Assembly (NCBI GenBank): GCA_963565915.1
Contig: OY751489.1
Span: 1,736,001 to 1,800,000, forward strand
DNA: 64,000 bases
Reading direction: 5' to 3'
Origin: Entoloma clypeatum
Taxonomy: Eukaryota; Basidiomycota; Agaricomycetes; Agaricales; Entolomataceae
In this document: in pieces, positions 5,611 through 58,834 of the stretch
How positions within the stretch are numbered: the stretch's first letter is position 1
Layout of the letters: each line of letters opens with the position of its first letter
Made by a program: the position numbers and the translations under genes
The notes under the pieces: generated by a model
The model's database searches: none
The model's input: only the letters and a program-made list of their open reading frames with translations
Told to the model about the DNA's origin: nothing

Positions 5611-5708
5611 TGTTCCCCTCTCCAAGCTCTGTGTCCTCACAGAGTCACTGTCCCCATCCCTCATTGTTGCCAGGATCGGACCAGTTCGGGCTCTCCTTGA
5701 GGCTCCAA

Positions 5709-8601: not shown

Positions 8602-8670
8602 TATGACGTGGTCCTCATACCGTAGAGTCCGTAACATGTTCCCCTCTCCAAGCTCTGTGTCCTCACAGAG

Positions 8671-9042: not shown

Positions 9043-9176
9043 GGTGGCGAGGATGGTTGAGAGATAGAAGAAGAAGGGGGAGGCTATATTGGGCAGGGAA
9101 AAGGACTAGAGCGGGGAACTCGGTGTGTGGTTGACTGATGAGGTCGATACTTGTCATGGATTCTGAGAGCTGTCTT

Positions 9177-10556: not shown

Positions 10557-10567
10557 TCACCTCCCCT

Positions 10568-16142: not shown

Positions 16143-17543
16143 AGCAAGGGGAGGCAGACAGGGATTTGGATGGGCAGATCTTTCCTGTTGCTAGGCCTTC
16201 GTCAATGAATGCGTCCAATTCCTTTTGTTCCTTTTGTGTCATAGGATATGTATTTCCCCCTAGTTCCTTTGGTGCGTCCGGTGTAAGTTCAATACCATGG
16301 TCCCATTCCCTCTCCTTTGGGATCTTATCAAAGTTCTCCTTCTCGAAGAGATGAGCAAATCGTTCAACATATGAGGGTCGTTTGGTTGTGGGAGGTGGTG
16401 TGGGAGTGACAGCTTCCAAAATAGGGTCTCCAGGCTTCCATTTCTGATCTGACTTTTTGGGTGCATCTTTGTCGCGCACCTCAACCATGCGAACCCGGTG
16501 TTTGCGACCATCATGTTACATTCCGATCCATTCTGACGATTTCCGACCAATCCCGACACCTCCGACACCTCCGATATTTTGACTAATACTTATTATGCAT
16601 ACTTACTGTTATGAATCTCGTTACTATGTACATTACTTATATCCGACCATTTTACTTATGTTAAGAATCTCCAACAGCCACTCGTTATCCGACTCCGACG
16701 AAGCCACATGTCCTCCGACATAGTATTTAAACTTATGTAGAATCGTGTATTAGCTTCAGTTTGAATATCAACTTAGATTCAACATCATACCTCCCGTCCT
16801 CTTTCCGACTCTTAACTTGAGTCCGACCTCCGACCTCCGATCCTCCGATCCTCCGAAATAAGGACACCAACGTATTAGCAAGGGTGCAACACACAAGTTG
16901 AAGCCAAGTCCTTGCCCCTACATTGCACGCGCCCCGACCCTCCGACCTTCCGACGCGTCCGACGTAGCTCCGATGTTTTGTCGATCAGTTCTTAACACAT
17001 CAAGGTTAACCCTGAAATCCGAGTGTTTGGTTCGACATGTTGGTGGGCACCGGTTAAATGTTACCGTGCCGGTTGTCCAATTGATTGTGGGGTTGTGGTG
17101 TACCAACCAGTCATGTCCCAAGAGCATGTCCGTTCTTCCAATGTCCAGTACCATTGCTTCCATGGTTTCCTGATGTGCTCCCAAATCCAGTTTGACTTCG
17201 GCAAGTTGGCTCGCTTTCTGTTGTCGATTTGGTGATCCATCCACATTTAGAATTGCTATGGGCGGTATTCCTCGCGTGGGGAGGTTCTGTTCACGTACTA
17301 TTCTGGGATGGATGCATGTGCGTTCACATCCGCTGTCAACCTCAGGTCGGATAACCGTTGGCCCTCGTCGTGTCCTGAGCTGAGCCAACAGCCTGATCTC
17401 TCGTCTTTTCAGAGGTTTATCTCCTTTCACAATCTTAGTCGACGCAGCGGCTCACTTGGCAGGGATCACATAGGTTCTATTGTCTGCAGTCATACAAGGC
17501 AAGCAAGTCCGTTTAATAGATAAGGGTCGCGACTTAGCGTCGT
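16143..17543 (-). pseudogene. Protease and start of RT, copy A'
   Basis: The protease segment (VDSGCERTC near 17330) and the region leading to RT are the reverse-complement twin of 1314-2715. The deduced proteins are identical in every frame I compared. The family D solo LTR at 16514-16997 splits it. It stops where B's truncated LTR begins, before the RT catalytic core. Confidence 0.88.
16514..16997 (+). repeat. Solo LTR of family D inside A'
   Basis: This is a 484-bp twin of 1860-2343, with the 5-bp duplication CATCA at 16509-16513 and 16998-17002. The position and duplication mirror those in A1 exactly. Confidence 0.95.
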
Positions 17544-18724: not shown

Positions 18725-19179
18725 GATGATGTGGCTCTGGGACGTCTCGATGTGAGCGTCCTAATCAATCTTCTGATAATGGTTGTCTGGACACCGATAA
18801 ACTCTCTGATCTCTGTGATCCGACCTGTCTGAGGTCCTTCTTGAACACGAAAGCTTTCGAGTTCATTCTGTCGGGCGTTGTAACGCGCGATCTGGTGTTG
18901 CCAAGCAAGATGGATGCTCTCTGCTATCTCGCCGTGGGGGCGATGCTCGTCGTTGTCTAGTTCTTCGTCAAGCACCTGCTGTAGGATGCGACGGATCTCC
19001 GATTCGATGTACTGCTGGATGAGTGTAAAATTGATACTGTCTCGAGGACTTAGCTCCTCCTGTCGGGCTTCTGGCGTGCTGAATGGGTTACTGGTGAAGT
19101 CTTCAAAGAAGCGCGATGTCTTGACTTGTCTGGTAGTTGCTCTCTTCGCTCTGGGCGAACCTAACGAGATTTAGCAACT
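18725..19179 (-). CDS. Leader open frame of family A, function unknown
   Basis: From the LTR border the minus strand stays open for about 140 codons in the -1 frame relative to gag. It encodes a charged, helix-prone sequence (INFTLIQQYIESEIRRI, LDEELDNDEHRPHGEIAESI). I found no ATG near its start. It may be the true N-terminal part of Gag, with an old frameshift before the ATG at 18724, or a leader protein. The same sequence is present in A'' and, in part, A1. Confidence 0.4.
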
Positions 19180-19581
19180 TGTTATGCTTAACAAACCGTT
19201 CCAAGGTTCGGGCAGAATATGCAGGAAAGTGGAAAGGTGAAGAGCAAAGTGATTGCTAAATCTAAGGAATCTACTATAGTACAAGAGGTTTATATAGGTA
19301 CTGACTATAGGCGGTAGCGGATGAGTCAGTACTGCGGAAGGCAGTGCGCATGAGTAAGGCGACTGTGGAAGGCTATGTACAGTGAGTAAGCTGACTGCGG
19401 AAAGCGAGTCAGCGCGGGAGCGAAGTATACTAAAGGGGATGACAAAGTAATGTAATGAGTCAGACTGGGAATCGAAGGTTGCGAAAGTAGACATTAGACA
19501 TAGTAAGTTCGTAAGAGGGCGCCGAGTCGGGCCGATAAGTAAAAGATATGACGTGGTCCTCATACCGTAGAGTCCGTAACA
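19180..19581 (-). repeat. 5' LTR of A' (402 bp)
   Basis: The ends are TGTTACGG...GCATAACA, with a TATATAAA box near 19288 on the minus strand. It has the empty TA site for Tc1 copy 1. It directly abuts element C at 19582. Confidence 0.93.
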
Positions 19582-20823
19582 TGAACCAACTGCCAATAAT
19601 GGTGGGCGAAGGGTTCAACAGGAGCGAGAGCATGTCGCTCATGTAAAGGCACTATGGGATGCACCAATACCCAAGCATCGGTATGAGTGGGTCCATGACC
19701 CACGGATGCCACAAGAATGGAATGAAATGGTGGCAACCATGTGTGCGAATGAGGGGCAAAAGGAACCCTCAATGCACTATCACATGGCAATGGAATCAGA
19801 GGAGACCATGCCTGAGGCGTTTGTACACCTGTACAAACCGGATCGCCCTGGGATGGAGCGATTAAACCGACTGGAATTGGAGAGATCTCAACTAGGAGTG
19901 GATGATACAAACGCCTGCTTGAAAAAGCTGATAGACAGGTTCCAGAAGCCTGTCACGAAGAAGTCGGATGTAGCGAAGGCGAAGCAACGCCTCTTGCATC
20001 ACGATTATCCCAGATTGTGCAAGCAATGGTGCGACAAGTTCCAGGACATAGTAAATGGGACTTGGGGTGAATTACCACCCTGGCATGAGATGAATCATGA
20101 GATACACCTCTATGATGACCACAAGCGGTATACATATCATACACCGCAATGTCCTCACTCACTTAGAGAGGAATTGTATGAGAAAATCAACCGGTATGTT
20201 GATGCCGGTTGGTGAGAGCCTAAGTCGGTGACACAAGCAGCCCCACTTTTATGCCTATCCAAGCGGGATGACAGGTTAGGACGGCGGCAGATGTCCGTCA
20301 AAGAAATGACAATACGATCAAGGACATAACGCCTCTGCCAGAACAAGACATTATTCGGGAGGATGTTGCTTGAGCACAGATTAGGTCAAAAATTGACCTA
20401 ACAGACGCGTTCAAACAAGTACGTGTTCGAATTGAGGACGTTGCAAAGAATGCTTTTGCAACAATAATGGGAACATATATGAGCCACATAATATGGATAG
20501 GGGACTGTAATGCCCCCGCAACGTTCCAACGGCTGATGACGTGTATATTCAGAGATGCCATAGGGTGTTTCATGCACATATATTTAGACAACATATTCGT
20601 CTACTCCGACAGTATAGAGGAGCATGAGGAGCACCAGATCATGTTTGAACGACTGAGGGATGAAAAGTTGTACCTCAAATGGAAGAAATGTGATTTGTAT
20701 GCAGAGCGCATGGATTGTCTCGGTCATATAATTGACCGAGAAGGAATACATGTAGATGCTGATAAACTAGCTCGCATTAGGGATTGGAGAGTCCCTAGAA
20801 ACTATAACAACATTCAAAGACTT
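19582..20823 (+). pseudogene. RT segment of element C
   Basis: The upstream part (19706-20215) is a pol N-terminal region, with RPGMERLNRL and a PHSLREELYEKINRYVDAGW stretch that leads into RT. The RT core reads RSKIDLTDAFKQVRV, APATFQRLM and IYLDNIFVYSDS. The active box is YLDN (20581-20592) instead of YLDD, again a CpG-context GAC to AAC change. In-frame TGA stops lie at 20213 and near 20371. Typical Ty3 order and the LGH(I)I thumb block near 20718 support the call. Confidence 0.85.
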
Positions 20824-21495
20824 TGTTAAGTAGGTGAAACGTCGGAGTTCGTCGGAGGTCGGACGTAGGACTGAGACCGGAGCGGAACTCCGGAAATGCA
20901 GAGGAACGACGAAGGGGAGGGACGTGGCTTCAACATATGTGTTGCGCCGCTGTTTGTTGGATAAGGTGTCCCAATTTCAGGAGGTCGGAGGAGAGGTCGG
21001 AGGTGCGGAGGTTCTCGGAAAGATCTCGGTGAGAGATACGTTGACGTGGAATAATGGTCGGACAACGTCGGAGTTGTGACTCGGACACAGTACTGAGCTC
21101 GTCGAAGGGTAACGATGGAGGAAAGCAGTAGATGAGGATGTCGTCAGCGTATTGTACCACAGCGAGGATCTCTGGCATGAACGGGGAGTAGAGGAGTGAA
21201 CTTTGTTGATATTCGAACTGAGGAACTACAGGTATGGTATGAGCTTAAATACCTAAATGAGATTACTTTACGGAGATGGTCGGAGTAGGTCCGGAGTTGT
21301 GGCGTAAGTTGCCAGCGACTGTAACGAACATTGGAGATGTCGGTCAATGGACCATGCGGAAAAGGCGATGCATAAGTAAACGGGAATATGAATATGAAAT
21401 GCACGATGGCAACATGCGGAGATGCGGAGGTAATGGATGTCCAGAATGTCGGAGGAATATCGGAGTGGATCGGAGAATTGGAGACGGATATAACA
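20824..21495 (-). repeat. Solo LTR of family K inside element C
   Basis: This 672-bp insert has TGTTA...TAACA ends, and GACTT is duplicated at 20819-20823 and 21496-21500. It is rich in TCGGA/CGGAG like the D LTR but is a different family. Orientation is inferred from similarity to reversed D LTRs. Removing it joins the RT and RNase H parts of C. Confidence 0.9.
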
Positions 21496-22003
21496 GACTT
21501 GTCAGATTAATTAATTACATTGGTGCATATCTGCCCAATATAACAGCTTATACGGGACCGTTATTAGCGATGACACAAAATGGCGCCCCATTTATGTGGC
21601 GCCCTATCCACCAGCGGTGTTTCGACATGATAAAATGTATCTGTCTCACCACCCCAGTAATAAAACCGATTAATCCAAAATCGGATGAGCCAATTTGGCT
21701 CATATGTGATGCCTCAAAGTCAGGTGTTGGGGCCATGTATGGACAAGGCCCAATGTGGAAGACATGTTGCCCAGTGGGGTTTATGTCTAAAAAGTTCACG
21801 AATGCCCAGCGAAACTATGCTGTGCATGAACTTGAGATGCTAGCCATTCTTGAGGCCCACCAGAAGTGGGAGGACAAGTTGATTGGCTACAAGGTCCATG
21901 TCATCATGGACCATAAAGCTCTTGAGTTCTTTAAGACTCAAAATCGGTTGACAAACTGACAGCGCAGGTGGATGGACTACCTGTTGCGATTTAATTTAAT
22001 TTA
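21496..22003 (+). pseudogene. RNase H segment of element C
   Basis: The reading shows the RT-RNase H linker (TAYTGPLLAMTQ), the first catalytic D in ICDASKSGVGAMYGQ, the E/D region with YAVHELEMLAILEA, and MDHKALEFFKTQ. A TGA at about 21957 stands in NRLTN(R)QRRWMDYL. Coding continues until the LINE tail at 22004. At least five perfect hairpins lie in this 500-bp block. Confidence 0.85.
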
Positions 22004-22322
22004 ATTTTTTTTTTGAATCAAGTTTATTGTGCTGAAGAAACTGAGTTCCTATGCTACACATTACATGCAGACAGGTAGGTAAGTGGGTGAGCAAGGCTTG
22101 GGCGGCGTGTTAAGTTGATGCTCTGATCAACCCTGCATGATTCGTGTGATAGAACTACAAGAGCCGTGAAATGCCGTGTCCCCCCACTGACTGAGAAAAA
22201 TGTGATGATACATATGTGTGAGGTGGCTTGTGGGGTGTGCTACAGGTCCGCTGAGCGGAGGGGGTATGGGCGACCACGTCGGGTGCCTACCGGTTGGGGG
22301 GGAGAAGGATTAGTGAGGGGTA

Positions 22323-23940
22323 CAGTGCCTCACAAAACTGATTCAATGTTTGCTACTTTGTGAATACCTTCAAAATAACTTTGCAAATAATGCCAATCAA
22401 AAGAAGGTATTGGTACCTGGTTAAAAGCCCTGCTTCAGGACTCTCAGAATCTGCAATAATTATGTAATTCCCATAAAAGATGATCAATATATGATCAAAT
22501 TACTCCAGGGACTCATTGAATCAGTTTTGTGAGTATGTACAATAAATACAGTATTTTATACTTTAGTACTTGGTATTACCCCCCTTAGCTTTGATTATTG
22601 CCTCTACCCTTCTTGGCATACTTTCTATCAGGTTTTGACACACTTCTGGCTTTATATTATTCCACACCTCTGCTGCTCTGTCCCAAATCTCCCAGACTCC
22701 CTTGGGTGGTGTTGGATATTCATTCAACTTCCTTTTAATATGAACCCAGAGGTGTTCAATAGGATTGAGGTCTGGGGACTGTGCAGGCCAATCCAGCAGA
22801 GCAATATTCTTGCTGTCCATCCATTTTTTGGCCTTCTTGGAGGTGTGCTTGGGGTCATTGTCCTGCTGAAAAATGATCTCCTCTTCAGAGATTCCACTCT
22901 CCTCTATGCTGGGCAGCAAAGTGTCCTCCAAAATGGACACATACTGATCAGCATCCATCCCCCCCTCAACCTCTGCAAGTCTCCCCACACCTTCCCAACC
23001 CATACAACCCCAAACCATAATATTTCCTCCCCCAAACTTGACTGTGCCCTGAACCTCTCTTTCAATAAGCCCCTCACCCTTCTTTTTCCAGATCCATTCC
23101 TTGCCATCTGACCCAAACCTGTTGATTTTGGTCTCATCTGACCAAATGACCCTCTTCCAGTCCTCCACTGTCCATTCCCTGTGCTTCATAGCAAATGCCA
23201 AACGCCTCTTCCGATGTATGGCCTTTAAGAAAGGTCTTTTCTTCTTTGTTACATTCTTGAATTCATGTTTTCTGAGAACCCTTCTCACAGTTTCTGGGGA
23301 GACAGAATTGGAGATGACAGTGTTGATGTGTTTGGTAGCCTGCACAGCATTGGAGGCTCTCCCTGAGGTGATTTGTGAAAGTATGTTTCGTGTGTTGGTG
23401 GGAGAAAGCTTGGATGGACGACCACCAGAAGAGAGATTGCGATGAGGAAGAAGATTCTGAAGCACTCTGGAGACAGTTGGTTGGCTGACACCCAGGTTAG
23501 CGGCAATATGACAAGTGGAGTGACCATTGGAGGCCAGAGAAAGAATGTTTTCCTTGTGGGAAGAGGAGATAGGGCGCATGATTAATTATGGAGGCTGTTG
23601 AGGTTGGATTCTTCTTATACAACTTTTCTTGACAACCCATCAGGGTTCTATTCAAGTTCCATCAGTAAGTCATGACAACTGGTTACCATACAACCAGTGA
23701 AGCATTTGATTCTGATAATTGCCATAGGTACTCACAAAACTGATTCAATGAGTTGCTGATTTAATTTAATCATATCTCCATGGATCTGATTTAAATCATA
23801 TGATTCCTTTATATTCTGAAAGCCCTGAAGTAGGGCTTTCAATTATATACCAAAGGTTTAATTCAATTGGTATTCTTTGCAGAGTTATCTTGAAGGTATT
23901 CAAAAAGCAACAAACATTGAATCAGTTTTGTGAGGCACTG
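22323..23940 (-). mobile_element. Tc1/mariner transposon, copy 2 (1618 bp)
   Basis: It has the same length and ends as copy 1, with TA at 22321-22322 and 23941-23942. It sits in the 3' UTR of the LINE. All four 18-bp core sites are present. Confidence 0.97.
22563..23579 (-). CDS. Tc1/mariner DD34E transposase, copy 2
   Basis: The 338-codon frame is uninterrupted, with the WSDETKI, FQQDNDPKH and SPDLNPIEHLW catalytic motifs complete. It keeps Arg at residue 54, Arg at 123 and Trp at 279, which copy 1 has lost. Private differences from copies 1 and 3 are few (for example FKNVTKK and WIWKKK). It is a strong candidate for a functional source copy. Confidence 0.97.
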   Translation of the reverse strand: MRPISSSHKENILSLASNGHSTCHIAANLGVSQPTVSRVLQNLLPHRNLSSGGRPSKLSPTNTRNILSQITSGRASNAVQATKHINTVISNSVSPETVRRVLRKHEFKNVTKKKRPFLKAIHRKRRLAFAMKHREWTVEDWKRVIWSDETKINRFGSDGKEWIWKKKGEGLIEREVQGTVKFGGGNIMVWGCMGWEGVGRLAEVEGGMDADQYVSILEDTLLPSIEESGISEEEIIFQQDNDPKHTSKKAKKWMDSKNIALLDWPAQSPDLNPIEHLWVHIKRKLNEYPTPPKGVWEIWDRAAEVWNNIKPEVCQNLIESMPRRVEAIIKAKGGNTKY

Positions 23941-23993
23941 TATAAGTCAGTAGGGGGGGGTCGGGGGGCGGGATGAGGGGGGGGTGTTGGGTG

Positions 23994-24884
23994 TTAGCGG
24001 GCTGTTTGGAGAGCTTGGGTGGTAGGGGAAGCGAAACATTTTGAGGACTGGATGTAGTCGAGGAGGGGCTTGAGAGCAGAAGGATCTGATAGGAGGAAGG
24101 AGGTGGACTCAGCTTTGTGTAACAGTTTGCATCTCAGTATGTGTCTCTCGCGTTGGTAGCGTGGACAGGCTATGAGGAAGTGGTGGACCATCTCGGGGAC
24201 CAGTCCGCGGCAGTGGGGGCAGGAAGGGGTTTCTGATCGGCGAATGCGGAAGAGGTGTTGGTTGAGTGGGGAGTGGCCTGTCGGAGCTGGGTGAGGATCG
24301 CTGACTGCCAGCAATCAAGGTTGGTGATGAGTTTCAGGTATTTCCCCGATGGGAGCGACTTGTCTATGGCGTTCGTGGAGGGGAAGATCTCCAGCGGCGG
24401 GTCCATTGGGACTTGAGAGTGGCAAGGTGGGTTTGGCGAAGGGCGGTCAGGCTGTTGGGGAGGGGTTTTCTTCTGAGGAAGGATGGGAGGAGGGAGGGCG
24501 CGCTTGAGGTTCCCTGGGCAGCTTGATTGGCTAGCTCGTCTGCCCAATCATTTGGCGTGAATCTGATGTGTCCAGGTGTCCAGTGTATTTGGAGGTCAAC
24601 CGCATCTTTTGCGGGGCGCTTACCTTTGCTTGTGGTTTGGATAGGGTTTCAGTTACCTTTCCATCTGTATTGGGCAGTGTGGAGCCTTTCTGCAGCGTCG
24701 TGGACGTGGTCTAAGAGGTGGTGGGCTGGGTGGGGTCGTTGGTTGTTGAGGGCGCGTATGGCTGCTTGGCTGTCCATGCCTATGGCAATGTAGGTGTGAA
24801 GGGGGGTCTGGAGGGTGGTCAGCATGTGGAGAGCGAGCATGAGGCCTACGATTTCGGCTTCATGAACCATGTGAAGTGAGGCCA
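23994..24884 (-). pseudogene. LINE RNase H domain and C-terminal zinc finger
   Basis: RNase H removes RNA from the cDNA hybrid. Readable catalytic blocks are HEAEIVGLML (E), GMDSQAAIRAL (D) and HWTPGHIRFTPNDWADELA (H and D). After frameshifts, the frame at 24314-23994 gives a finger, CPHCRGLVPEMVHHFLIAC, of the kind found at the C-terminus of fungal Tad1 LINE ORF2 proteins. A TGA lies near 24650. The RT and endonuclease parts are absent through 5' truncation. Confidence 0.82.
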
Positions 24885-25330
24885 TCCTAGAGAAAAACGT
24901 CAACCGCAGAATCTCTGAACAAGTGGCTAGCGATGGCAAGACGTACACCGATTACGCAAAGGAGATCCGAAACAAGGGACGACAGATGGAAGGACACGCA
25001 CTGGTCATCCGAGGTGGCGGCGACATGCGCACCGGATTGGGTACCACTTATGGTGGTCAGGGCAAGGCCATGGAGATCGACAAAGCAGGAGTAGCCCATT
25101 GCTACAACTGTCAACGCTTTGGTCATCTGGCTAAAGACTGTAGCACTCCAAAGAAGAAAGATGGTTGCAAGTGTTTCAACTGTGACCAAGAAGGCCATAT
25201 CATGTGCAACTGCCGCAAGCCGAAGAAGAACTCTGGAAGGGTTAGGAAGGTGTCTGAGGAAGATGCCGAGAATGATGAAACCACAATCTTAGAAGCCGAC
25301 GAGAAGGATTTTCCTGAAGGGTCCAATTAA
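24885..25330 (+). pseudogene. Gag C-terminal part, copy A3
   Basis: This is open from the LINE junction to TAA at 25328, with both CCHC knuckles (about 25100 and 25170). It has CGA at 24980 where A1 has a TGA stop. The heptamer GGATTTT at 25306-25312 is in the same phase as in element B. However, TGA at 25315 follows in the pol frame, so a shift there would now terminate. Confidence 0.85.
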
Positions 25331-28300
25331 ACGACGCTAAGTCGCGACCCTTATCTATTAAACGGACTTGCTTGCCTTGTATGACTGCAGACAATAGAAC
25401 CTATGTCATCCCTGCCAAGCGAGCCGCTGCGTTGACTAAGATTGTGAAGGGAGATAAACCTCCGAAAAGACGAGAAATCAGGCTGTTAGCGCAGCTCAAA
25501 ACACGACGAGGACCAAAGGTTATCCGACCTGAGGTTGACAGCAGATGTGAACGCACATGCATTCATCCCAGAATAGTACGTGAACAGAACCTCCCCACGC
25601 GAGGAATACCACCCATAGCAATTCTAAATGCGGATGGATCACCAAATCGACAACAGAAAGCGAGCCAACTTGCCGAAGTCAAACTGGATTTGGGAGCACA
25701 TCAGGAAACCATGGAAGCAATGGTACTGGACATTGGGAGGACGGACATGCTCTTGGGACATGACTGGTTGGTACACCACAACCCCACAATCAATTGGACA
25801 ACCAGCGTGGTAACATTTAACCGATGCCCAACAACATGTCGAACCAAACACTCAGACATGGTTGAGGTGCGCGACAAAGATGCACCCAAAAAGTCAGATC
25901 AGAAATGGAAGCCTGGAGACCCTATTTTGGAAGCTGTCACTCCCACACCACCTACCACAACCAAACGACCCTCATATGTTGAACGATTTGCTCATCTTTT
26001 CGAGAAAGAGAACTTTGACAAAATCCCAAAGGAGAGGGAATGGGACCATGGTATCGAACTTACACCGGACGCACCAAAGGAACTAGGGGGAAATACCTAT
26101 CTATGATGCAAAAGGAACAAGAAGAATTGGACGCATTCATTGACGAGGGTCTAGCAACGGGAAAGATCCGCCCGTCCAAATCCCCTTATGCCTCCCCTTG
26201 CTTCTTCATCAACAAAAAGGATGGCTCCAAATGATTGGTACAAGATTACCGCATGGTCAATAAATTCACGGTCAAAGACAAGTTCCCACTCCCATGAATA
26301 TCCGATCTCTTGGACGTACTGAAAGATGCGGTCTACTTCAATAAAATGGACATCATGTGGGGCTATAACAACGTCCACATTAAGGAGGGTGATGAATGGA
26401 AAGCTGCCTTCCAGCGAGCACCCACATCAAAAAAGGAAGTTCAGAAGTTCCTTGGATTTGCCAACTTCTATCAACGTTTTATTGAAGGGTACTCAAACAT
26501 TGCAAAACCTCTCACCGCGCTCACAGGCGGTACGGCATTTCTAATAAAACAAATACTTCTACTTATTTTTTCGTTTCACTTGGGGACCAACAGAGCAGCA
26601 AGCCTTTGAAGGTCTCATACAGGCAATTACATCAGCACCAGTCTTGGCATTACCAAAATCAGAGGGACAGTTCAGGGTTGAAACTGATGCATCGGGCTAT
26701 GCAATTGGAGCAGTACTCTCTCAGAAGCAAGACAACAAATGGCACCCCATCGCATTCTTGTCATGGTCCGCGGCCGAACAGAATTATGAGATATACGACA
26801 AGGAACTCCTGGTGGTCATGGAAGCATTAAAAGATTGGAGACACTATCTGCTCGAAGCCAGGGAGTGTTTCGAAATCTTGACTGATCACAAGAACCTGGA
26901 ATATTTCCGTCGTCCTCAGGACCTGAATCAACGACAGCGACACTGGAAGATGAAGTTACAAGACTATGACTTTGAATTACGGCATGTACCCAGCAAAACC
27001 AATGCGAAAGCGGACATCCTGTCATGCTTACCCTGGTATGAAGCGGAACTCGAACCACAAGACAGTGACCAAATGCTCAAGGAGGGACTATTCTTGAAAC
27101 GATTGGAATCAGAAGATGTGGTACAAATGGAGATGTTCACGGAGGAACAATTCTTTGAAGGGGGTGAAACATCTGATTCCATCAAAATTGGAAACGTCAC
27201 GACCATCGAAAATCCGTGGATTGCACGCATCAAGGGTTCAAACCGCATGGAGACAGAAGTAGCCCAGGGTCTAAAGAAGAATCCTCATTGGTATCAACAG
27301 GAAAACGGCATCACATATGCAGGCGAACAAGTCTATGTTCCGCCAGATCCACAATTGCGACAAGAATTGATGTTTGAATCACACGATGCACCAGTGGCTG
27401 GACATCCAGGACAGTACCGGACACATGAACTCCTCACTCGCACCTACTGGTGGCCTACCATACTGCATGATGTGAAGAAGTACGTGAAGGGTTGCGACAC
27501 TTGTCAACGCAACAAGATTAACTGACAAAAGCGACATGCTCCGCTACATCCCCATGCAGCACCAAGTCACCCATGGGAAGACATAGGAATCGACGTCGTG
27601 GGACCAATACCAGGATCTGATGGAAAAAACGCAATTCTGGTCATCACGGATAGACATTCAAAGATGCTTCACCTCATTCCGACAACCATGGAACTATCAG
27701 CTGAAGGATTAGCCAAGATCTATCGGGATCAGATATGGAAGCTTCATGGGATCCCCAAGAGGATCATCAGCGATAGGGGACCACAATTCGCTGCGAAGTT
27801 CATGGAGATACTCTGCCGCATGTTAGGGATCAAGAGGAACCTGTCCACCGCATACCACCCACAGACTGATGGACAGGCCGAGCGATCGCATCAGGAAACA
27901 GAAGCATTCTTACAAAACTTTGTCAACCATCTACAGGATGATTGGGCAGAATGGATCGCAATCGCAGAGTTCCAGTACAATGACAAAGAACACCAGGCAA
28001 CGAAGCACACCCCATTCTACCTCAACTACGGTTTACATCCGTGGAAGGGAGAACTCGTGTTAGAAGATACCAATCCGGCTGCCAACGACTTCTTGAAAAA
28101 ACTCAAACAGGCACGAGAAGAAGCCAATGCTGCGCTGAAACAAGCACAGGATCAGATGAAGAAGACAGTTGACACACGGCGAAGTCCGTCTCGGGACTAC
28201 CACATCGGAGACAAGGTGTGGCTGGAAGGGACTAACATCAGGACTGATCGACCCTCAAAGAAACTTGATGCACTCCGACATGGACCATTCAAAGTCCTAG

Positions 28301-28638
28301 AGAAGAAAGGAGCTAGCGCGTACCTTCTTGATCTTCCGAAGACTTGGAAGATGATTCACCCTGTGTTCAACGAGACCCTGTTGTCACCATATGAAACTCC
28401 GAAGTACGCCATCCAGAAAAAGAAACCAGCCCCTGATCCGATCATCGTCGAAGGATGAGAAGAGTACCATGTGTCTACAATCCTGGACTCTCGAAAGTCC
28501 CGCGGAAAGATCCAGTACCTCGTCCAGTGGGAAGGATATGGCCCAGAAGAGAACACATGGGAACCGCGAGCTAATGTTCAGACCGCTCAAGATTTGATCC
28601 GTGATTTCCATTGGCAGAACCCGTCACGTCCACGATAA
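25331..28638 (+). pseudogene. Pol of copy A3, RT core deleted
   Basis: The protease frame from 25372 is open (VDSRCERTC, where Gly of the DSG triad is now Arg, so protease is dead). The RT reads to about 26413 and jumps to the thumb block ([17 protein letters not shown]). RNase H, integrase (GHPGQYRT, ISDRGPQFAAKF, DGQAERSHQ) and chromodomain ([16 protein letters not shown]) follow. TGA stops lie at 26232, 26295, 27523 and 28456. The last faces CGA at 9359-9357 in A'. It shares with A1 a frame change at the T-run near 26565. Confidence 0.88.
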
Positions 28639-28760
28639 AAGACACCCGTTGAAATCAGCAACAGCATCGACCTCATCAGTCAAAAACCCACCGAGTTCTC
28701 CGCTCCGTCTTCAATATAGCTACTCCATTCTTCCTCTATCTCTCCAACATCCTCCGCACC

Positions 28761-29123
28761 ATGTCCACCGCCACCACCACATCCACTGAAACCAACCCCG
28801 CCATCACTGCCCTCATGGGTGAAGCCCTCTCCATGAGAGACCAGATCCACGCGCTAGAAGCCTCGCTCGCCGACATCCTGCATCGACAGATGCACATCCG
28901 CCTCCATTCTTTATCTGACCTCCCCGTCGCACCAACCCCCGAAGAAAAACAAATCCTCGGGAACTACACCCGTACGCTGGTCATTGAAAACCGGCGCATC
29001 TGAATAGCCGTCCGGAGTCTCGAGCTCGCCGTTGCCATCAACGAAGAGTTAATAGACGATTGGAGCCTCAAGGAAAATGGCTCCTGGACAAACAACGACA
29101 ATGCCGGAGGATGGGGACAATGA
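28761..29123 (+). pseudogene. Third frame of family A, copy A3, one TGA
   Basis: This is a homologue of 8671-9042 with ATG at 28761, the same helical core (MRDQIHALEASLADILHRQ), and GWGQ before the stop. A TGA near 29001 replaces an Arg codon of A'. Amino acid differences from A' are mostly conservative. Confidence 0.7.
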
Positions 29124-29157
29124 CTCTGTGAGGACACAGAGCTTGAGGAGGGGAACA

Positions 29158-29525
29158 TGTTACGGACTTACCGGTTTGTATGTTACGCACTTTTCCCTTG
29201 CATTGTACCTTCGTTATTTCTTTGACTCATCGGACCGCTTATTCATTTACCTTTACTCTATCATTCTCCTTTAGTATACTTCGCTCCCGCGCTGACTCGC
29301 TCTCCGCAGTCGTCTGACTCACTTCGCACTGCCTTTCCGCAGTTACTGACTCATCCGCACTGCCCTCCGCAGCTACTGACTCACTCGCTACCGCTCGTAG
29401 CCAGTACTATATAAACCCCATGTACCATAGCTACATTCCTTAGATTTAGCAATCACTTTGCTCTTCGCCTTTCCACTTTCCTGCATACTCTGCCCGAACC
29501 TTGGAACGGTTTGTTAAGCATAACA
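29158..29525 (+). repeat. 3' LTR of A3 (368 bp)
   Basis: It is preceded by the purine tract GAGGAGGGGAACA, has TGTTACGG...GCATAACA ends, and a TATATAAA box at 29408-29415. The middle differs from the A' LTR, so A3 represents a distinct subfamily. Element C resumes at 29526. Confidence 0.92.
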
Positions 29526-30723
29526 ACCAGGATGTTCTGCAGGACTTGTGAGTCCTGCCAGCAAGCAAAGGGGTCAAACCGACCCCCTATGGGAAAAATC
29601 CACCCCCTCCCCATCCCGACGAAGCCTTGGGACTCCATAGGGATGGACTTTGTGGGCCCATTCCCAGAATCCAAGGGGTATAACTACCTATGGGTGGTTA
29701 TCTGCCGAATGATGAGCATGGTGCATCTCATTCCAGTATACACCAATATGAAAGCATCGGAGCTTTCGTGGGTGTATCATAGGGAGATTGTGCGCCTGCA
29801 CGGACTCCCAAGCTTGATCATGAGTGATCGAGATTCGAAATTCACGTCAAAATGGTGGCGTGAGTTACACAGGATGTTGAGAGCCAAGCTCCTAATGTCG
29901 ACATTCTTTCACCCACAAACCGACGGACAGACGGAACAGGCCAACAGAAGTGTTGGCCAGATTTTCCATATGGTTGTCCATCATGACCAGAAGACTGGTT
30001 GGACAGGGTGGACGTCACGGAGTTCGCAATAAATGTGAGCATATCAGGGACGACGGGGTATGCCCCGTTTGAGTTAAATGGAGGACATATGCCCTCTATG
30101 TTAAAAGAGTTACAGTCAGATGAGGCTATCCTGAAGGGTATCAGGGACTTTGCACTCCAGGCTCTGCAGAACCTGGCAGACGCGCACGATACGATTATAG
30201 AATCATGAGCTTTTCAGGTGAAATATGCAAATGAGAGGCATACGGCAGAGCCAGAACTACAAGTAGGTGACCTCGTCTACTTATCAACAAAAAATTTGAA
30301 TGTTCCAAAAGGTAGGGCAAGAAAACTTTGCCCTAAGTATGTAGGTCCCTATAAGATACTGAGATCAAGGCCAGAGACCTCGACGTACATGTTGGAGCTC
30401 CCTGTTGCGCTCCAGGAACATCGGATACATCCAACATTTCATGTGTCTCTCTTGTGACTGTATGAGGCATCAAATGATGCCTTATTCCCTAACAGGGTTC
30501 ATCCAGAGCCCTATGACTTTGGTGCGCCTGACAACACTGAGTGGTTCGTGGAGGAACTGTTGGGCCATTGGTGGAATGGCAGGAACCTTGAGTTTGAGGT
30601 TTGATGGAGTCTAGGTGACACAACATGGGAGCCGCAGTCGTCATGCAAGGACTTGGCAGCCCTTGACCAATATCTGGAACTGCAGGGCGTCCACCGCCCT
30701 GCTCAACTGTCCAAGCAACAGTG
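29526..30723 (+). pseudogene. Integrase and chromodomain-like end of element C pol
   Basis: Integrase begins at its zinc finger (CRTCESCQQAKGS). The core shows MDFVGPFPES, MSDRDSKFTS and HPQTDGQTEQANRSVGQIF, so D, D and E are present. The C-terminal part reads VGDLVYLSTKNLNVPKGRAR, KYVGPYKI and HPTFHVSLL, then a chromodomain-like tail (WFVEELLGHWWNGRNLEFEV). A frame change lies near 30000, and TGA stops occur at 30206, 30456 and 30602. Several very regular hairpins overlap conserved codons, for example 29539-29558 over CRTCES. Confidence 0.83.
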
Positions 30724-30847
30724 AAGAGGATGATTGGCATCCTCTAGTGATAATCGTCGGACCGTGGGAGTGTTGAAGGGGTCATGTGTGTTGCAGCGAC
30801 CTTGGGAAATTTTTCCTTCTTACTTCCGCAATTCACACTGCTTCGAC

Positions 30848-33776
30848 ATGCTGCACAGCAACGACGAAGCCACAGGTAGCGGTGCCCAGGGGCGCCGCTC
30901 AAACCGTCTGCAGGGTTCTCAGAACTGCAGGGGCAGTTCTGGAAGGGGGGGAAGAGGCGCACAGAGAGTGCCTCATAACCCCTCCTGGATATCGCAACCA
31001 ACAATGGGGCAGCTGCTGCCCCAGACACAGTATGCGCAGTTCGCGCAATACCCTAGGGGACATGTAGAGTATCCCCAGAATGTGCAGGCCTGTCAGGGGC
31101 CGACAACATATCAGGGTGGATTTCAAAATCCACCCATGCAGTCATGGGCCCTGCCAGTGCCCTCTCCTCTGCGAGTGGGAGGGTCCTGGGCGGATCAGAT
31201 GGAACTGGACTATGAAGGTCCAGCACCACGATGTGATGCGAGCACGTCGGACCACAGGGAGGACAATGTGTCCTCCAGAAGCAAGGGGAAACAGAAGGCG
31301 ACTGCGGTGGAGCTTTCTCAGAGCAAGCTCAAGGAAGGTGGAGAGTTCCAGTGGAAGCTCTTAGGCCTCTTAGATCGTGAAGGCTAGAAGTGGCCCGAGA
31401 CGCGATCTCGAATGAGTCGGCGGTCCTGACAATCCGCCAACTCACAACAATGATTGAAGACCTCTGCCGAGAGGTTGGACAGGCAAACAATGCCCGTCAA
31501 CAAGCAGAAAATGATTTTGTTATGGCAAGACGGAAGCGACCCACTTCTCCTCAGTCCCCTCCACAAGATGAGGACATGTGCTGTTCCCGGAAGGTGTGGA
31601 GTCAGGGAGGGTTCTCTACAGAACCCTCGTCATCTCGCACTAGGGAACAAGAGGGTCCATTAGCAGGACCCTCGGCCTCAGTCTCATCCTTGGGACCGGC
31701 TTCAGCTCACCCTTCTAGGGATTCCTCAGAATCTCGACCGGCAAAACCGTTACCGGTCAGAGAGCAAGGGATACCCCGGGGAGGTGAAGAGAGGTCTGGG
31801 GATCATCACAGACCCCCACAAGCCAAAAGGGTCATTCAAGGATCCAAGGGTGCCAGAAGGCACAAGCACCCCAGAGGTGACACGGTGGAACATATCGTTC
31901 CACCCCCACATGTCCACTTCTGTCGGGAGTGGATATGAAGTGGCCGAAGGTGGACAATGCAGTCCACCCATTGATGTTGGATGACCGTCCACAAGCCCCA
32001 GCCTCTGACTTGTCAGACGACTATGAGGATGAGGAGCCGTCCCTTACTGATGACCTGGAGGACATGGAGGAGGACGAGACAACCGGGGCGCAAGAAGTGT
32101 GCCTCCTCAAGAATCAAGAGGTTCGGTCTCGCATGGCCGAACAGGATGAAAAGGCGGCTAAGGAAGCCACCAAGCGGGAACATCGCAGGCCTGGATGTAT
32201 GTATTCCTGACCTGTTGGGTGTTGTCATTGTTGGCGGCAGCAATCATAAGGAATGTGACAACGCGTTCCGGGGAATGGTCTCAAACCGATACTTCGTGTT
32301 GAGGCGCACAAATATTGTGTTTGGAGGGCAGCATGCGATGGCTGCCTGTCAGCTCAAACGTAACACTTCTCAGTGTTATTATCTTCCGATCAAGTGGAAG
32401 ATGCAGAAGAAGGTTCCGCGGGGGTTCCCTATGAACCCCCAAGAAGTCGACGATCTCATTGGGGTCGTCAACAATAGGTATGTAGGAACAGAGGAACATG
32501 TCCTAGCGTACCTTCTGGTCAACGAATTCCGTTGAGTGACATTCAACGTCGCTGAGGAACAGTGGGATTGAGCGATGTTGTACGTCGCTCGAGACAATGT
32601 ATTTGAGCGGGTACAGTTACCTGTTCCAGGGACCAATCCTCTGTGGGTTACTCAAGTAATCCCACCAATGGCTGGCGCGATGCGCTTCAGCCGTGAATGG
32701 GGAACCAAAGGCTCTGGCCTCAACATGCCTGAGGCCACAATGGACATGTCAGAAATGGCGAAGTTCCTTATTCACCATGCTCGACCTGGGGGATTGAACC
32801 CCATAGTCGGCATTATCTTCAATTACGCCTTCCAAGTAGAAGGGCGTAGCGTCTTCGGATATGCCTTGGGGAGAATCTTGTCCCCAACCACTGCTCAGGC
32901 CCGGCAAGTGTTCATGAGACACTTTGCCACGATAGTGGCCTGGCCTCGTCTGTACAACGAGGCTATTGTATGGTGGAATGAATTTCATCCCACCGAGCCC
33001 TTTGTGTCAATCACAGAAGGGTTCCTGTTTCTTGTCTGGCAGATGGATGTACACAACCGCAACAGCAGAAACATGACAGACAACAATGTCCTTGCCGTCA
33101 TGATCCTGAATGGCATTCCGCCAGAGTGGTGGGTTATTCATACCCATATGGTTGGCAGTTCTTGTGCAATCATTTTGCGGCAAGGATGATGTATTCGGAA
33201 AACCTCTGAGTAATCGATGCGGATCGTCTGCATCATATTGAGCGGGGAGGGATTCCACCAGCAATCCCTCGGTGGGGAGGTTGGCGTAGCCCAACCGTGA
33301 ACGATGTGGGTCGTGTTTGGACCCTTATTCATGAGGAGGAAAATCAAGTTCCTCCTGTCTGGAGTTTGAACAGTGATATGTGGCTGTTGTATGGGGAAGA
33401 ACCCCGATATCACTATGTCAACAGACGAAGCAAGGGATCACAGATGGTCCCTCCGCAAACCTTGGTAAATAATGTATCCGCCTCCATTGGTGCTCTGTCG
33501 CTGGCGCTGCCAGCCACCCTGGGGGAGGATTCAGAAATGAGGGACGTTGTGCAGGCCGGACCTCACAACCTGGGAACGGCCGCTGGAGGGTCTAACGACC
33601 CTCACCCTATGCAGGAGTCTAACGACTCCTCGGACCCATTGGCTGCGGATGCCATGCCGGTCGATGGAGGGTCTAACAACCCTCACCCAGCGCAGGAGTC
33701 TAACAACTCCTTGGGTATCGCGACGGGTCCTGACGACGGCGGGAGCGCTCTGGGGAACGAGATCCCTCAACCGTAG
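30848..33776 (+). pseudogene. Large unrecognised frame downstream of pol in element C
   Basis: About 970 codons follow pol and precede the LTR. The first ATG in frame is at 30848. Parts in order are a Gly/Arg/Gln-rich N-terminus (SSGRGGRGAQR), a short coiled coil (IRQLTTMIEDLCREVGQANN), a Ser/Pro-rich stretch, an acidic stretch (DEEPSLTDDLEDMEEDE), and a globular region rich in Trp and Arg (32200-33190). The C-terminus is repetitive, with two copies of GGSN(D/N)PHP(M/A)QESN. Frame changes near 31385, 31930 and 32200 and TGA stops at 32533, 32569 and 33187 mark it as decayed. I do not recognise the family. A displaced Gag or an envelope-like or accessory protein are possibilities. Confidence 0.55.
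33586..33711 (+). repeat. Four matched hairpins in a tandem duplication
   Basis: Hairpins at 33586-33603 (GAGGGT/ACCCTC), 33613-33630 (AGGAGT/ACTCCT), 33667-33684 and 33694-33711 repeat the two stems. Loops are CTAACG in the first pair and CTAACA in the second. They encode the repeated C-terminus of the frame above. Confidence 0.9.
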
Positions 33777-34083
33777 GCCTTCAGGTCTACAATTTGTTTC
33801 TTTTTATATATGCATGGACAATTGCGACACGGTGAGTAGCTTTACGCTACTTCGCCCTATCCTGCTTTCTGGTTGACACACACATGTCAACCAACTCGCT
33901 TTATTACTCGTTGCTGACAGTCATAAACTGTCGGCCAATAAAAATTGTTTTTACTTGTAAGAACATCATGGCAGTCAAATGACTGCCTTCAGGGAAACTG
34001 AAATAGCGAAAAACAGAAGAAAATATTGTACTAGATTAGAGAGGCCCTAGTTAAGATTGCAACGGCAATCTTGAAGGGGGGTA
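33777..34083 (+). other. 3' untranslated region and polypurine tract of element C
   Basis: No coding is seen. The stretch ends in the purine tract TTGAAGGGGGGTA, which primes plus-strand synthesis next to the LTR. Confidence 0.7.
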
Positions 34084-34267
34084 TGTAACGGATCTGGTGT
34101 TGTTTGGCTAGGGCTTCATGGCAAACCCTATTTAGGTAGTTGTTTACCTTACATAAACCCTAGCCCTTATCTTCACACCTGCACGAGTACCCTAGCAATC
34201 CATTCACTGGTCTAGTTTACTCCGTGCTATGTGAGATATTCGGAGCTCCCTGTAACGACACATTACA
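34084..34267 (+). repeat. 3' LTR of element C (184 bp)
   Basis: The ends are TGTAACGG and CATTACA, with a 5-bp terminal inversion (TGTAA/TTACA). It lies directly after a polypurine tract. The only copy is this one, so the right border is inferred from the terminal inversion. Confidence 0.7.
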
Positions 34268-36001
34268 GATGCGCAAGCAATGTTGCAGATTATAGTTAAG
34301 TAAATGATTTGCAATGTAGTTCTTTGTAGTTGGTAATACTTGTGTTGGTGAACAACCGATTTATGTTCAGAGGTCAATAGAGAATCTGCTCTAAGACATC
34401 AACACAGATTTACTATGTTTATTGCATGGTACAACAATAATGCGTGAGGGTGTTATTTGGTCTTGTTTGCCAAGGGAGGCAGCCAAAACAGGTGCTCTAC
34501 TCAATGCAAGAACCAGATCACTGTCACAGCCAGACAAGGCACAGATCAGATGATGGGTTGATCCAAATCTCAAGAGTGTAACAAGCACTCTGATGTGTTT
34601 CATGCAATCAATAGTAATCTTGGTATTCCAAGAACCATATAATGCAAATTAATGCATTATTAGTAAGCAATCATTTAAGATGCTTCTTCAAGTAATTTTT
34701 AGAAGATATACTTGGAAATAGAACCCAACAATAGTCTGATAAGACTAACAGATCAATTCATATCATATTCTCTTTTATCCAGAATTCATCGTTTCTGGGT
34801 GAGAAATCATAGGGGTATAAGCTGGGATAAGCTTTTTCTTCTGTTCAAGCTGACCATTGATAAGTATGCAGCTGTCACGGTGCTCCTTAAACAGTACAAC
34901 CTATAGAGTGTTGTATACAAAACAATGCATCTGATGGTGAGATCAAAAGATCAAAGATCAGTTTGATAGCAATGGTATTGCAAAGCAGATAGCACATTTA
35001 TGCTGCCATTAAAATGCTTCTCTATATTCTCCCCCTTTTCACAGTCAAGTATGGCAATCATTTCCCGTGTATCTTTTGGCTTTCAAAGGGCATATGCTGA
35101 AATAGATGCAGAACTTGGTTGGAAAACCAGAAATTCATGCAGAAAAGATGATTGCAAACTGTGGAGGAATTACTCTGCAAGATATACTGAGGTAATTAGT
35201 CTCAGGCGATTATTCCAGCAACATTTGTAAGCTGTGATACAACCTGATTTTTGACTATATCCATTTTTGCCATAGGGTGTGAACCATCACGGTCATCCCT
35301 ATCTGATTCTGTGACAAGGCCATCGCCGCTTGATTAAAGCGCAGATGCCATATAAGTCAAAATGCAATGCCAGCCTCAAAGGCGCAAGATGCATCAGAGA
35401 TCATTCCCATGCAAGAAATGGAGAGTTCAGATAAGAAGCTTTGCATAGCCTCAAATCATCACTACTTTGTGAAGAGGTGAGGAACAAGATTGGTTGGCTA
35501 GACCAATTTGAATCGATTTAGTTGAAGAATTGAAAAACTCTTCTTCTCATAATAAAGTATTATAATTTTGGCAGCCAAAATGACAATTTCAAACACTATC
35601 GCAGCCTGTCAAGGCGCAGAATAGGCAATGCAAAAGTCATAGCGCACAAATACAATATTGTGTTTATGCTTAAGAGCATGTTTATCCAATTTATCATGCA
35701 ATATTTGAGCAACGATAGAAGATGGAATATTAATTCCTGAAAAGGAAATGAAGACGCAGCAGAAAGACAAACTAATGACTCATGCAGTCTCATTTAAACC
35801 AGCTTATCAAGCTGTTTTCTTTATAGTAGGTGGCTCAAAGGCACACCCAACTATTGGAATCATTCCAGATTGGATATAAGCTATTTGAACATAAAATGCA
35901 AATGCAGTTTTAAATCTCTCTTTTTTCATTCAGAATTTGAACAGGTTGCAAATCAATGTATTGACTGCAATGAAAGAAAATACAATCATGCTACACAATG
36001 A
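34268..36001. other. AT-rich noncoding stretch with hairpins
   Basis: No convincing coding region was found. It contains perfect hairpins, including 34618-34633, 34639-34660 (8-bp stem), 34732-34747, 34779-34798 and 35565-35581 (8-bp stem). It also holds copies of a GCAGCC...GGCGC motif near 35370 and 35601. It may be the decayed 3' part of the copia element whose gag follows on the minus strand. Confidence 0.5.
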
Positions 36002-36865
36002 TTACACTGTTCTAAGATCCATGCCTGGAAACGCTACGTCATAATCTTCGACTGGTGGATCCTTGTATTTTTCTGTTATGATGGCTTCATGCATCAGACC
36101 AGCAACACAGCTAGAGTAGCGCAGAGCACCAGGGTCTGTTGGTGCAGATAAGAAAAACTTCTTTTTCCATAAGTTCCGAGATGGCTGATGGAAAACATCA
36201 CATGATGTCAGTTGAGGGTCATAGGAGATACCTATGCCGTAAAGGTAATCCTCAAGTGACAAATCAGGAACAGGATCAACACGATGATGATTATATATTT
36301 CAACAATCAATTCTCGAACCTTATCATAGGTGAGATCATCATTGTAAAGAAGGGTTTCTATGGCAAAGTCATCCCAATCAGGAGATGGGAGGGCAGATAG
36401 AAGCATTAGGGCCCGAGTCGATGGAGAAATAGAATGATGTGCACCAAGATGATCGAAGATCTTATCAAGATAATCAATCTCAGTTGCAGGTTGTTGCTTC
36501 ATAGAAAGTTTGAAGGACAATGCAGCACAGATGTCAGACAAGACTATTGTGTAAACAGCTTGTCCAAATCTATTTTTCAACTCGAACCAAGTCTCAGAAG
36601 ACATATCCCTGGTGAGTTTGATCAACAGGTCGACACAAAGTCGAATATTGGCTAAAGCCATTTGATCTCTAATGTTCCATGCTTTGACTTGAGTTGTATG
36701 GGCTTTCCTTGTAAGGTTAGCAGACATCAAAGGTCGCTTCTCAACACCATCAATGATTCACCACAAATCCTGAGATCTAAGAAACAAACACATGGTGTTT
36801 GCCCACTCAGGATAGTTTGTTCCATCAAGAATGGGAACAGCAATCAAAGAAGTGATTGAGGACAT
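36002..36865 (-). pseudogene. Ty1/copia-type Gag, element H, one TGA
   Basis: The likely ATG is at 36865. The first 35 codons (VPILDGTNYPEWANTM) are the usual copia Gag start. A TGA at 36760-36758 follows LW, probably from a Trp TGG, and the same frame then runs open for 242 codons. The body matches the UBN2-type Gag pattern: ETWFELKNRFGQA, DICAALSFKL, LDKIFDHLG, LMLLSALPSPDW. No zinc knuckle and no pol follow, so the element is truncated. Confidence 0.75.
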
Positions 36866-38128: not shown

Positions 38129-38143
38129 CCGGGGCCCATAACC
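38129..38143 (-). promoter_or_regulatory. Primer-binding site of copia element H
   Basis: On the minus strand this reads GGTTATGGGCCCCGG. GGTTATGGGCCC is complementary to the anticodon arm of initiator Met-tRNA (GGGCCCAUAACC), the half-tRNA primer known from Drosophila copia and Ty5. The identical site is next to the LTR of element G. Confidence 0.7.
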
Positions 38144-38235
38144 TATCGAACAGCACCGGCTACTACGCAGGGGAACCTGGGTAAGATACTCACATTGGAG
38201 GCAAGAAGAACGAGAAGAGTGGAGCGATGATGAAG
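38144..38235 (-). repeat. 92-bp LTR end fragment of copia element H
   Basis: It lies next to the primer-binding site, where the 5' LTR should end. A 92-bp homologue lies at 43670-43761. Both include a GTGAGTATCTTA splice-donor-like stretch. The rest of the LTR is replaced by the pogo relic. Confidence 0.5.
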
Positions 38236-58766: not shown

Positions 58767-58834
58767 CCCCCCCATATTTAGTACATACTTCTAAATACAT
58801 CTTACTTTTTCCCATATAGGTACTCTTTCTTCAT

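Follow-up and report, generated by a model that had tools for sequence, protein, structure and literature searches.

Element C, a Ty3-type long terminal repeat (LTR) retrotransposon of approximately 9 kilobases (kb), was analysed in a window of 64,000 nucleotides (nt) from Entoloma clypeatum (assembly GCA_963565915.1, contig OY751489.1, positions 1,736,001 to 1,800,000 of the forward strand), and its sequence is saturated with short perfect hairpins. Among the sequences examined, only C and its relatives have this excess of hairpins over shuffled controls. It is shared by the copies of the element and is accompanied by an excess of folding energy, and the individual hairpins turn over between diverged relatives. 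We consider selection on the RNA of C for pervasive local pairing to be the likeliest cause, and a moderately probable one. The genome consists of 60 Mb in 20 contigs and the window lies in that designated C8. Positions are those of the window unless a copy is named.

Perfect stems of at least 8 base pairs (bp) with loops of 0 to 10 nt were scanned exhaustively in the whole window. The scan revealed 41 of them, 23 in the three blocks of C (6.0 kb), three in the 304 bp that separate position 33776 from the 3' LTR and 15 elsewhere in the window (~57.7 kb). From dinucleotide shuffles, the blocks were expected to hold 0.13, 0.09 and 0.72 stems, respectively, 0.94 altogether; four stems were present in 19582-20823 and two in 21496-22003, the first two of these blocks. 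A sequence-only reading of the window had listed 23 inverted repeats in C and had set the chance rate at about one stem of this kind per 6 kb. All 23 repeats were present where they had been placed, and the summed expectation of the blocks agrees with that rate. Two repeats listed without stem length had 7 bp (19687-19703) and 6 bp (29570-29586), another (20719-20740) lengthened to a 9-bp stem (20718-20741), and two stems of at least 8 bp (29939-29958 and 31258-31276) had not been listed. In a second control, synonymous codons were permuted keeping the protein and the codon counts (60 shuffles each). In the window copy, the open frames contained 16 stems of at least 8 bp against 1.45 expected (maximum 4), and c2a, a whole copy of the element, had 23 against 1.28 (maximum 5). 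When junction dinucleotides were also preserved, c2a had 64 stems of at least 6 bp against 18.5 (maximum 26 in 20 shuffles). The claim of saturation is thus borne out with dinucleotide and codon-preserving shuffles alike, and since neither ever approached the observed counts, chance, composition or codon usage is ruled out as the cause with near certainty. No curated Rfam family matched 19500-34300 up to an E-value of 0.1.

Regarding the rest of the window, six of the eight other blocks carry 0 or 1 stem of at least 8 bp (0.5-1.6 expected from dinucleotide shuffles), and the 3' flank (33777-35600) has five against 0.44, including three that are part of C. Family A had been said to lack the pattern, and indeed no stem of at least 8 bp was found in 1-5250. 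Its stems of at least 6 bp were below the dinucleotide expectation both there (4 vs. 11.9) and in 23946-29525 (4 vs. 12.8), where its coding strand is the forward one. Both segments are copies of one family, so that the deficit counts as about one observation; family A may avoid structure. A shorter-window test of 1-5250 gave a folding excess near zero on both strands.

Seven copies of C, 85-97% identical by segment, have most of their hairpins in common, and all seven loci scanned around copies of C are enriched, with 5-10 stems of at least 8 bp per 3.1-3.4 kb (0.4-0.9 expected). Each of the 23 other Ty3 loci (L034-L041 and L043-L057), many of them near-identical to one another, carries 0 or 1. 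Two diverged relatives, L058 (50-54% amino acid identity to C over parts of the 3' open reading frame, ORF) and c13 (57% in the integrase and 23-31% in the 3' ORF), have the excess as well. In 1.5-2-kb blocks of L058, stems of at least 6 bp reached 2.9-4.6 times and those of at least 8 bp 8-33 times the expectation; the values were 3-5 and 9-27 times in blocks 7301-8500, 11604-13300 and 13300-14773 of c13. Among the segments tested beside these c13 blocks, a Tc1/mariner core (1 vs. 2.5) and the right flank (4 vs. 4.8) were unenriched and a part of family A had a mild excess (17 vs. 9.9). A genome-wide trait, or one of old repeats, is therefore not supported among the Tc1/mariner core and the 23 other Ty3 loci, which are near expectation. 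Hairpins of c2a of at least 6 bp were considered matched when a counterpart lay within 6 nt of the corresponding centre. None of 9 was matched in the RNase H-integrase part of c13 and 2 of 11 in its 3' ORF, compared with 6 of 21 in L058; in L059, which is closer to c2a, 7 of 12 were matched. Hairpin density is inherited, and positions are kept in close copies and mostly lost in distant ones; it follows that the individual hairpins are not what is kept.

The mean folding-energy difference (MFED), calculated in 350-nt windows, was 18.7% in c2a, 19.7% in the window copy of C, 17.2% in c14, 20.0% in c13 and 13.3% in L058. The Ty3 controls L034, L043, L047 and L037 gave 4.3, 4.0, 4.0 and 7.5%, respectively, the last three values being those of the coding strand. 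As a separate observation, L037 (G000:C10:3895061-3895390 and flanks) is, of the Ty3 loci that do not belong to family C, the one with the reverse transcriptase (RT) most similar to that of C (48% identity) and shows, besides its intermediate folding excess, a mild excess of hairpins (13 stems of at least 6 bp vs. 5.4-6.1, none of at least 8 bp).

The form of the signal was profiled by pooling four sequences, which are not independent, two being copies of C. Stems of at least 6 bp exceeded the expectation 1.3-fold with a loop of 0 nt, 1.7-fold with 1 nt and 3.7- to 8.2-fold with 2-7 nt, with the maximum at 4 nt and about 1.2- to 1.4-fold beyond 13 nt; loop lengths follow hairpin thermodynamics. 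Observed and expected stems were 121/51.6 (6 bp), 53/14.3 (7 bp), 60/2.7 (8 bp), 15/0.9 (9 bp), 7/0.3 (10 bp) and 1/0 (11 bp), and in C the 8-bp stems outnumber the 7-bp ones (29 vs. 21 in c2a; 16 vs. 7 in window C3). Present copies of C have one stem of at least 7 bp per 150-270 nt, and such perfect stems cover 10% of c2a. G-rich 5' arms predominate (36 vs. 16 arms in c2a, 17 vs. 8 in c13 and 12 vs. 4 in L058; 65 vs. 28 pooled, sign test p 1.6e-4). It must be noted that the 5' arm of a perfect hairpin is identical on both strands, so that this bias is not a strand test. It agrees with the asymmetry reported for RNA stems in PMC8794818, and we count it in favour of selection on RNA.

Part of this form could be expected from dispersed packaging signals, in which each hairpin would be a low-affinity site for a putative Gag or nucleocapsid protein and many would be needed. 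The hairpins are evenly spread along the element, their length peaks at 8 bp with loops of 4-7 nt, and C is never the outermost 5' base of the 8-bp stems of c2a (0/29), window C3 (0/16) and c13 (0/8). However, C occupies that position in 3 of 6 8-bp stems of L058 and in 6 of 58 c2a stems of at least 7 bp, and the loops, judged by eye, have no evident common motif. We regard this explanation as improbable.

A mutational origin deserves more attention, although we still judge it rather unlikely. The nascent strand would fold back and copy itself during reverse transcription, perfecting quasi-palindromes again and again, and the hairpins would be accumulated scars without a role in the RNA, sieved by what the protein tolerates. 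The generation and maintenance of hairpins by template-switch mutations is on record for the replication of DNA and for RNA genes, and the asymmetry of RNA stems in favour of G-C over C-G was attributed to them by the authors, in the parts of that paper considered here (PMC8794818). The arms of C are biased in the same direction. One convincing event of inverted copying was found at c2a 11216-11231, where several neighbouring arm bases changed, transversions included, at the birth of a hairpin. Additionally, the 3' end of c2a, with its untranslated part, is the densest. The coding sequence offers two further arguments for this mechanism. Coding hairpins of c2a, 51 in number, are distributed over the three codon phases as 19/18/14, against a synonymous potential for an 8-bp stem of 659/303/66 sites, an optimistic per-position count which takes 4929-13028 as a single frame although ~380 bases before 10047 are not open; the protein sequence has therefore yielded in places. 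Likewise, ten stems of the RT-RNase H region were set against as many as 120 homologues, and in some of their outer codons C specifies residues that are rare at conserved columns, such as A for the usual W in VWKTAFAT. In this regard, the proposal of the sequence-only reading that synonymous choice has been bent to the pattern is too narrow, the least synonymous phase being overfilled. Insertion of ready-made hairpins was considered and rejected for seven of these ten c2a stems, which align to 69-119 homologues with 0-1 internal gap; the other three, which may or may not be insertions, lie in a variable linker, with gaps in 42 of 89 alignments.

Several results speak against template switching. 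Clusters of at least three close differences matching a local inverted copy were hardly above the control (8 of 410 ordered-pair clusters vs. 6.5; 5 of 65 loci), which bears on recent events, and older switching may have occurred. Stems in the untranslated parts of c2a are still of 8-9 bp, and other families copied by RT in the same genome lack the hairpin excess. The bias of U-A over A-U, also ascribed to the model in the parts of PMC8794818 considered, was not seen in the 5' arms of c2a (A 103, T 87). The sequence-only reading had offered template switching and selection for a folded RNA as possible causes; the latter fits better the turnover, the loop thermodynamics, the 8-bp stems and the folding excess, and recent switching is left unsupported by the 5 of 65 loci.

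Differences between copies also allow pairing to be followed in evolution (c2b, 98.8% like c2a, was omitted from the pair tallies). Cells in which both paired bases had changed numbered 18, against 4.0 under simple re-pairing and 11.9 ± 2.0 when CpG status was kept (maximum 17 in 300). Divergence at third codon positions in the other subgroup was 0.082 in c2a-defined stems and 0.115 in shifted ones, 16 of 536 shifts being as low. Taken with the cluster counts and the non-pairs in and near stems, these change patterns favour, not decisively, a weak pairing constraint over running template switching. As an observation apart, ~89% of the copy differences are transitions and most double changes in stems are at CpG, as if methylated cytosines decayed in this genome.

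Under the preferred explanation, selection on RNA, long-lasting selection would shape the whole transcript of C, coding and untranslated, toward dense local folding. The typical unit would be a short perfect stem-loop, mostly of 8 bp with a 4-7-nt loop, and the target would be overall pairing and not particular hairpins, with the positions turning over and the density remaining. A number of results weigh against it. Folding of the sense and antisense strands of c2a is equal (-0.03 ± 0.41 kcal per 120-nt window). Non-pairs inside stems comprised 42 GU, 44 AC and 10 others among 1909 cells, as results when stems decay through transitions on either strand. Conservation is similar in arm codons (own-residue frequency 0.61 and 0.57) and in the remaining codons (0.56), third-codon divergence is as low in loops as in stems, and the sign of constraint on stems is weaker when CpG-like sites are excluded (53 of 536 shifts as low). 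An 8-bp peak is missing in c13 and L058, which are single copies of greater age, block 8501-9751 of c13 is less enriched than the others (6 vs. 2.8 of at least 6 bp; 0 vs. 0.2 of at least 8 bp), and stem length did not fall significantly with G+C content (p 0.18 with a minimum stem of 7 bp; p 0.39 with 6 bp). Finally, outside CpG only 2 both-changed cells were found in 271 pairs. With respect to the GU and AC counts, one-mismatch stems of the phage MS2 are likewise balanced (GU 22, AC 21), and equal counts in the one-mismatch stems of C need not speak against RNA.

The equal folding of the strands, together with stems that are Watson-Crick on both of them, would be expected if the cause acted on DNA, by selection of cruciforms or of hairpins in single-stranded complementary DNA or by a strand-symmetric process. 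Against this, fixed non-pairs near stems have GU above AC relative to slid controls (24:17 vs. 118:175, p 0.03), and phages that exist only as RNA display a similar pattern. We give a DNA-level cause marginally less credit than packaging signals.

If RNA is the level of selection, the selected molecule would be the sense RNA, and the likeliest benefit would be the shielding of genomic RNA from host surveillance dependent on single strands, or its compaction for packaging. Exon-level matches to Piwi (24), RdRP (10) and Dicer_dimer (3) domains were found in the host, so that shielding from RNA interference (RNAi) is possible. Stems of 8-10 bp would be too short for Dicer. It may even be that the entire genomic RNA of this lineage is an array of short stem-loops hidden from host RNAi, a retrotransposon counterpart, unusually pure and made up of perfect 8-bp hairpins at shifting positions, of the viruses with genome-scale ordered RNA structure (GORS). 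The stems would then be just long enough for stability, and selection strong enough to alter some conserved residues. We propose this only tentatively, as a possibility that we find more doubtful than probable.

The organization of the window copy and its hairpins are provided in Table 1. Pfam profiles gave the domain order RVT_1, RT_RNaseH and rve (the last below the cut-off), as in Ty3/gypsy elements, and an SH3_Tf2-1 match, also below the cut-off, in the C-terminal pol of c2a. In the part of the window in which copy alignments were listed (19000-36000), none starts before 19582, and C extends beyond 33776, where the sequence-only reading had ended it, up to its 3' LTR (34081-34270). Stops interrupt the window copy, as do insertions in two groups (20824-21495 and 22004-29525). 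At the first, copies c6, c2a, c2b, c5 and c2c are continuous and overlap by 6 bases; the inserted segment is, for the most part, present elsewhere in c2b, c5 and c14. Transposase domains were found in a near-identical copy (7345-8358) of the Tc1/mariner-type transposon of the second. The whole element c2a has LTRs at 4403-4592 (5') and 13335-13521 (3'), 95% identical to each other, with open stretches in one frame covering a 5' region, RT, RNase H, integrase and the long 3' ORF.

Table 1. Parts of element C in the window, later insertions and individual perfect hairpins.
Feature	Position	Strand	Basis or state in copies
C, N-terminal part and RT block	19582..20823	+	RVT_1 match 20467-20826; copies align ~89-96%
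Later insertion within C, outside hairpin pattern	20824..21495		copies uninterrupted here
C, RNase H block	21496..22003	+	RT_RNaseH and RT_RNaseH_2 matches 21276-21956
Later insertions, unsaturated: Tc1/mariner-type transposon (22321-23945) and family A element	22004..29525		repeat pairs, counts
C, integrase and C-terminal pol	29526..30725	+	rve match 29511-30029, below cut-off
C, long open region downstream of pol (3' ORF; stop-broken in window)	30726..33776	+	open frames
C, 3' untranslated part, 3 further hairpins	33777..34080	+	hairpin scan, copy alignment
3' LTR of C, ~190 bp	34081..34270	+	93% identical to c2a 5' LTR
7 bp, loop 3	19687..19703		intact in 5/5 mapped copies
9 bp, loop 2	19819..19838		intact in 0/4 mapped copies; 7-8 of 9 pairs retained
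9 bp, loop 3	20381..20401		intact in 5/6 mapped copies
8 bp, loop 7, within conserved RT motif codons	20440..20462		scan, copies, homologues
9 bp, loop 6	20718..20741		scan, copies
9 bp, loop 1	21685..21703		intact in 2/2 mapped copies
8 bp, loop 4	21893..21912		intact in 0/5 mapped copies; 6-7 of 8 pairs retained
8 bp, loop 4	29539..29558		intact in 6/6 mapped copies
6 bp, loop 5	29570..29586		coordinate check
8 bp, loop 4 (not in sequence-only list)	29939..29958		intact in 5/6 mapped copies
8 bp, loop 7	30313..30335		intact in 6/6 mapped copies
8 bp, loop 2, complete in window copy only	30465..30482		4-6 of 8 pairs in 5 mapped copies
8 bp, loop 5	30682..30702		scan, copies
8 bp, loop 5, by pol/3' ORF junction	30725..30745		intact in 5/6 mapped copies
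9 bp, loop 4, paired changes among copies	30920..30941		scan, copies
9 bp, loop 1	31005..31023		intact in 6/7 mapped copies
10 bp, loop 2	31114..31135		intact in 6/7 mapped copies
8 bp, loop 3 (not in sequence-only list)	31258..31276		intact in 0/7 mapped copies; 6-7 of 8 pairs retained
9 bp, loop 4	31607..31628		scan, copies
8 bp, loop 7	31651..31673		scan, copies
8 bp, loop 5	31884..31904		scan, copies
8 bp, loop 5	32420..32440		scan, copies
8 bp, loop 7	32715..32737		intact in 6/6 mapped copies
8 bp, loop 8, clean paired change among copies	33247..33270		scan, copies
8 bp, loop 7	33334..33356		intact in 5/6 mapped copies
9 bp, loop 6, 3' untranslated	33870..33893		scan, copies
8 bp, loop 2, 3' untranslated	33970..33987		scan, copies
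8 bp, loop 4, 3' untranslated	34053..34072		intact in 5/5 mapped copies

The 3' ORF (30726-33776) has a conserved RSVFGYAL core and may encode a displaced Gag or an extra protein. It matched no Pfam family in the window or in c2a, and a Pfam scan of the two 5' open frames of c2a, where gag and protease were sought upstream of pol, and of its two 3' ORF frames gave no match. A protein search revealed at least four relatives (among the best 7,996 candidates scored); a sequence search of the PDB and an AlphaFold model (predicted local distance difference test 38) of the 3' ORF yielded nothing usable. Near its end (33586-33710), a near-tandem repeat, partly present in copies, doubles a pair of hairpins (GAGGGTC/GACCCTC and AGGAGTC/GACTCCT types).

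Hairpins were also noted outside C. The stretch 54000-64000, which has a copia-type gag, shows a modest excess (6 stems of at least 8 bp vs. 1.9); 36000-43800 has 38 stems of at least 6 bp against 21.8 expected, but one of at least 8 bp against 1.4; and four stems of 7-9 bp lie within 180 bp at 43895-44073, three of them, at 43895-44048, of at least 8 bp. Palindromes with stems of 14-18 bp and AGACCGGTC- or GGTTTAAACC-like arms occur in the flanks of copies (c6 14351-14392, c13 14586-14623 and c2a 16849-16878) and apparently belong to other repeats.

That C coexists with unstructured families in a single genome with RNAi domains offers a natural comparison, in the same host and with the same mode of replication, of elements with and without structure. 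C could thus serve to test whether folded RNA evades small-RNA silencing, and its copies of varied age allow the birth, decay and compensation of hairpins to be traced. A literature search found no report of a hairpin-saturated retrotransposon, and no relatives of C were found in viral contigs. Among the best 120 of 676 matches, the nearest named relatives of its RT are from Agaricomycetes, e.g., Leucocoprinus, Lyophyllum, Hypsizygus, Pleurotus and Trametes, and in an RT tree of 31 sequences and ~120 residues C falls within an Agaricomycetes group, separate from the Ty3 families that are abundant in this genome. The species identified by protein search include Lyophyllum shimeji, Hypsizygus marmoreus, Leucocoprinus birnbaumii and members of Trametes. 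C shares with the Ty3/gypsy elements of Agaricomycetes the RT, RNase H and integrase and the short LTRs; it may differ from them in its saturation with hairpins, and differs in the long 3' ORF downstream of pol without Pfam match.

As for template-switch hairpins, likeness is found in the perfect stems, the preference for 4-nt loops and the G-C over C-G asymmetry, as far as the parts of PMC8794818 considered here describe them; the difference is that the multi-base footprint is unenriched among copies of C.

Large-scale RNA folding is known in RNA viruses and its purpose is debated. In the phages MS2 and Qbeta, as in C, local perfect hairpins and folding energy both exceed shuffles. Their MFED is higher (30 and 32%, respectively), whereas c2a is richer in perfect hairpins (4.06 per kb vs. 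0.56 in MS2 and 1.68 in Qbeta; observed/expected stems of at least 8 bp 37/0.97, 2/0.57 and 7/0.43, respectively) and has a larger local share of predicted pairs (63%, compared with 54% for the phages and 46% for a single shuffle). In the parts of PMC7642675 considered, the folding excess is ~15% in sarbecoviruses and 7.5-10.7% in hepatitis C virus, and viral pairings shift between relatives while structure persists. With these GORS viruses (coronaviruses, hepatitis C virus and pegivirus), as far as they are described there, C has in common a folding excess along the genome (17-20% in C), an abundance of predicted local stem-loops within coding sequence and a poor conservation of pairings among relatives. 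It differs in being an LTR retrotransposon with a DNA stage and in its richness in short perfect 8-bp hairpins.

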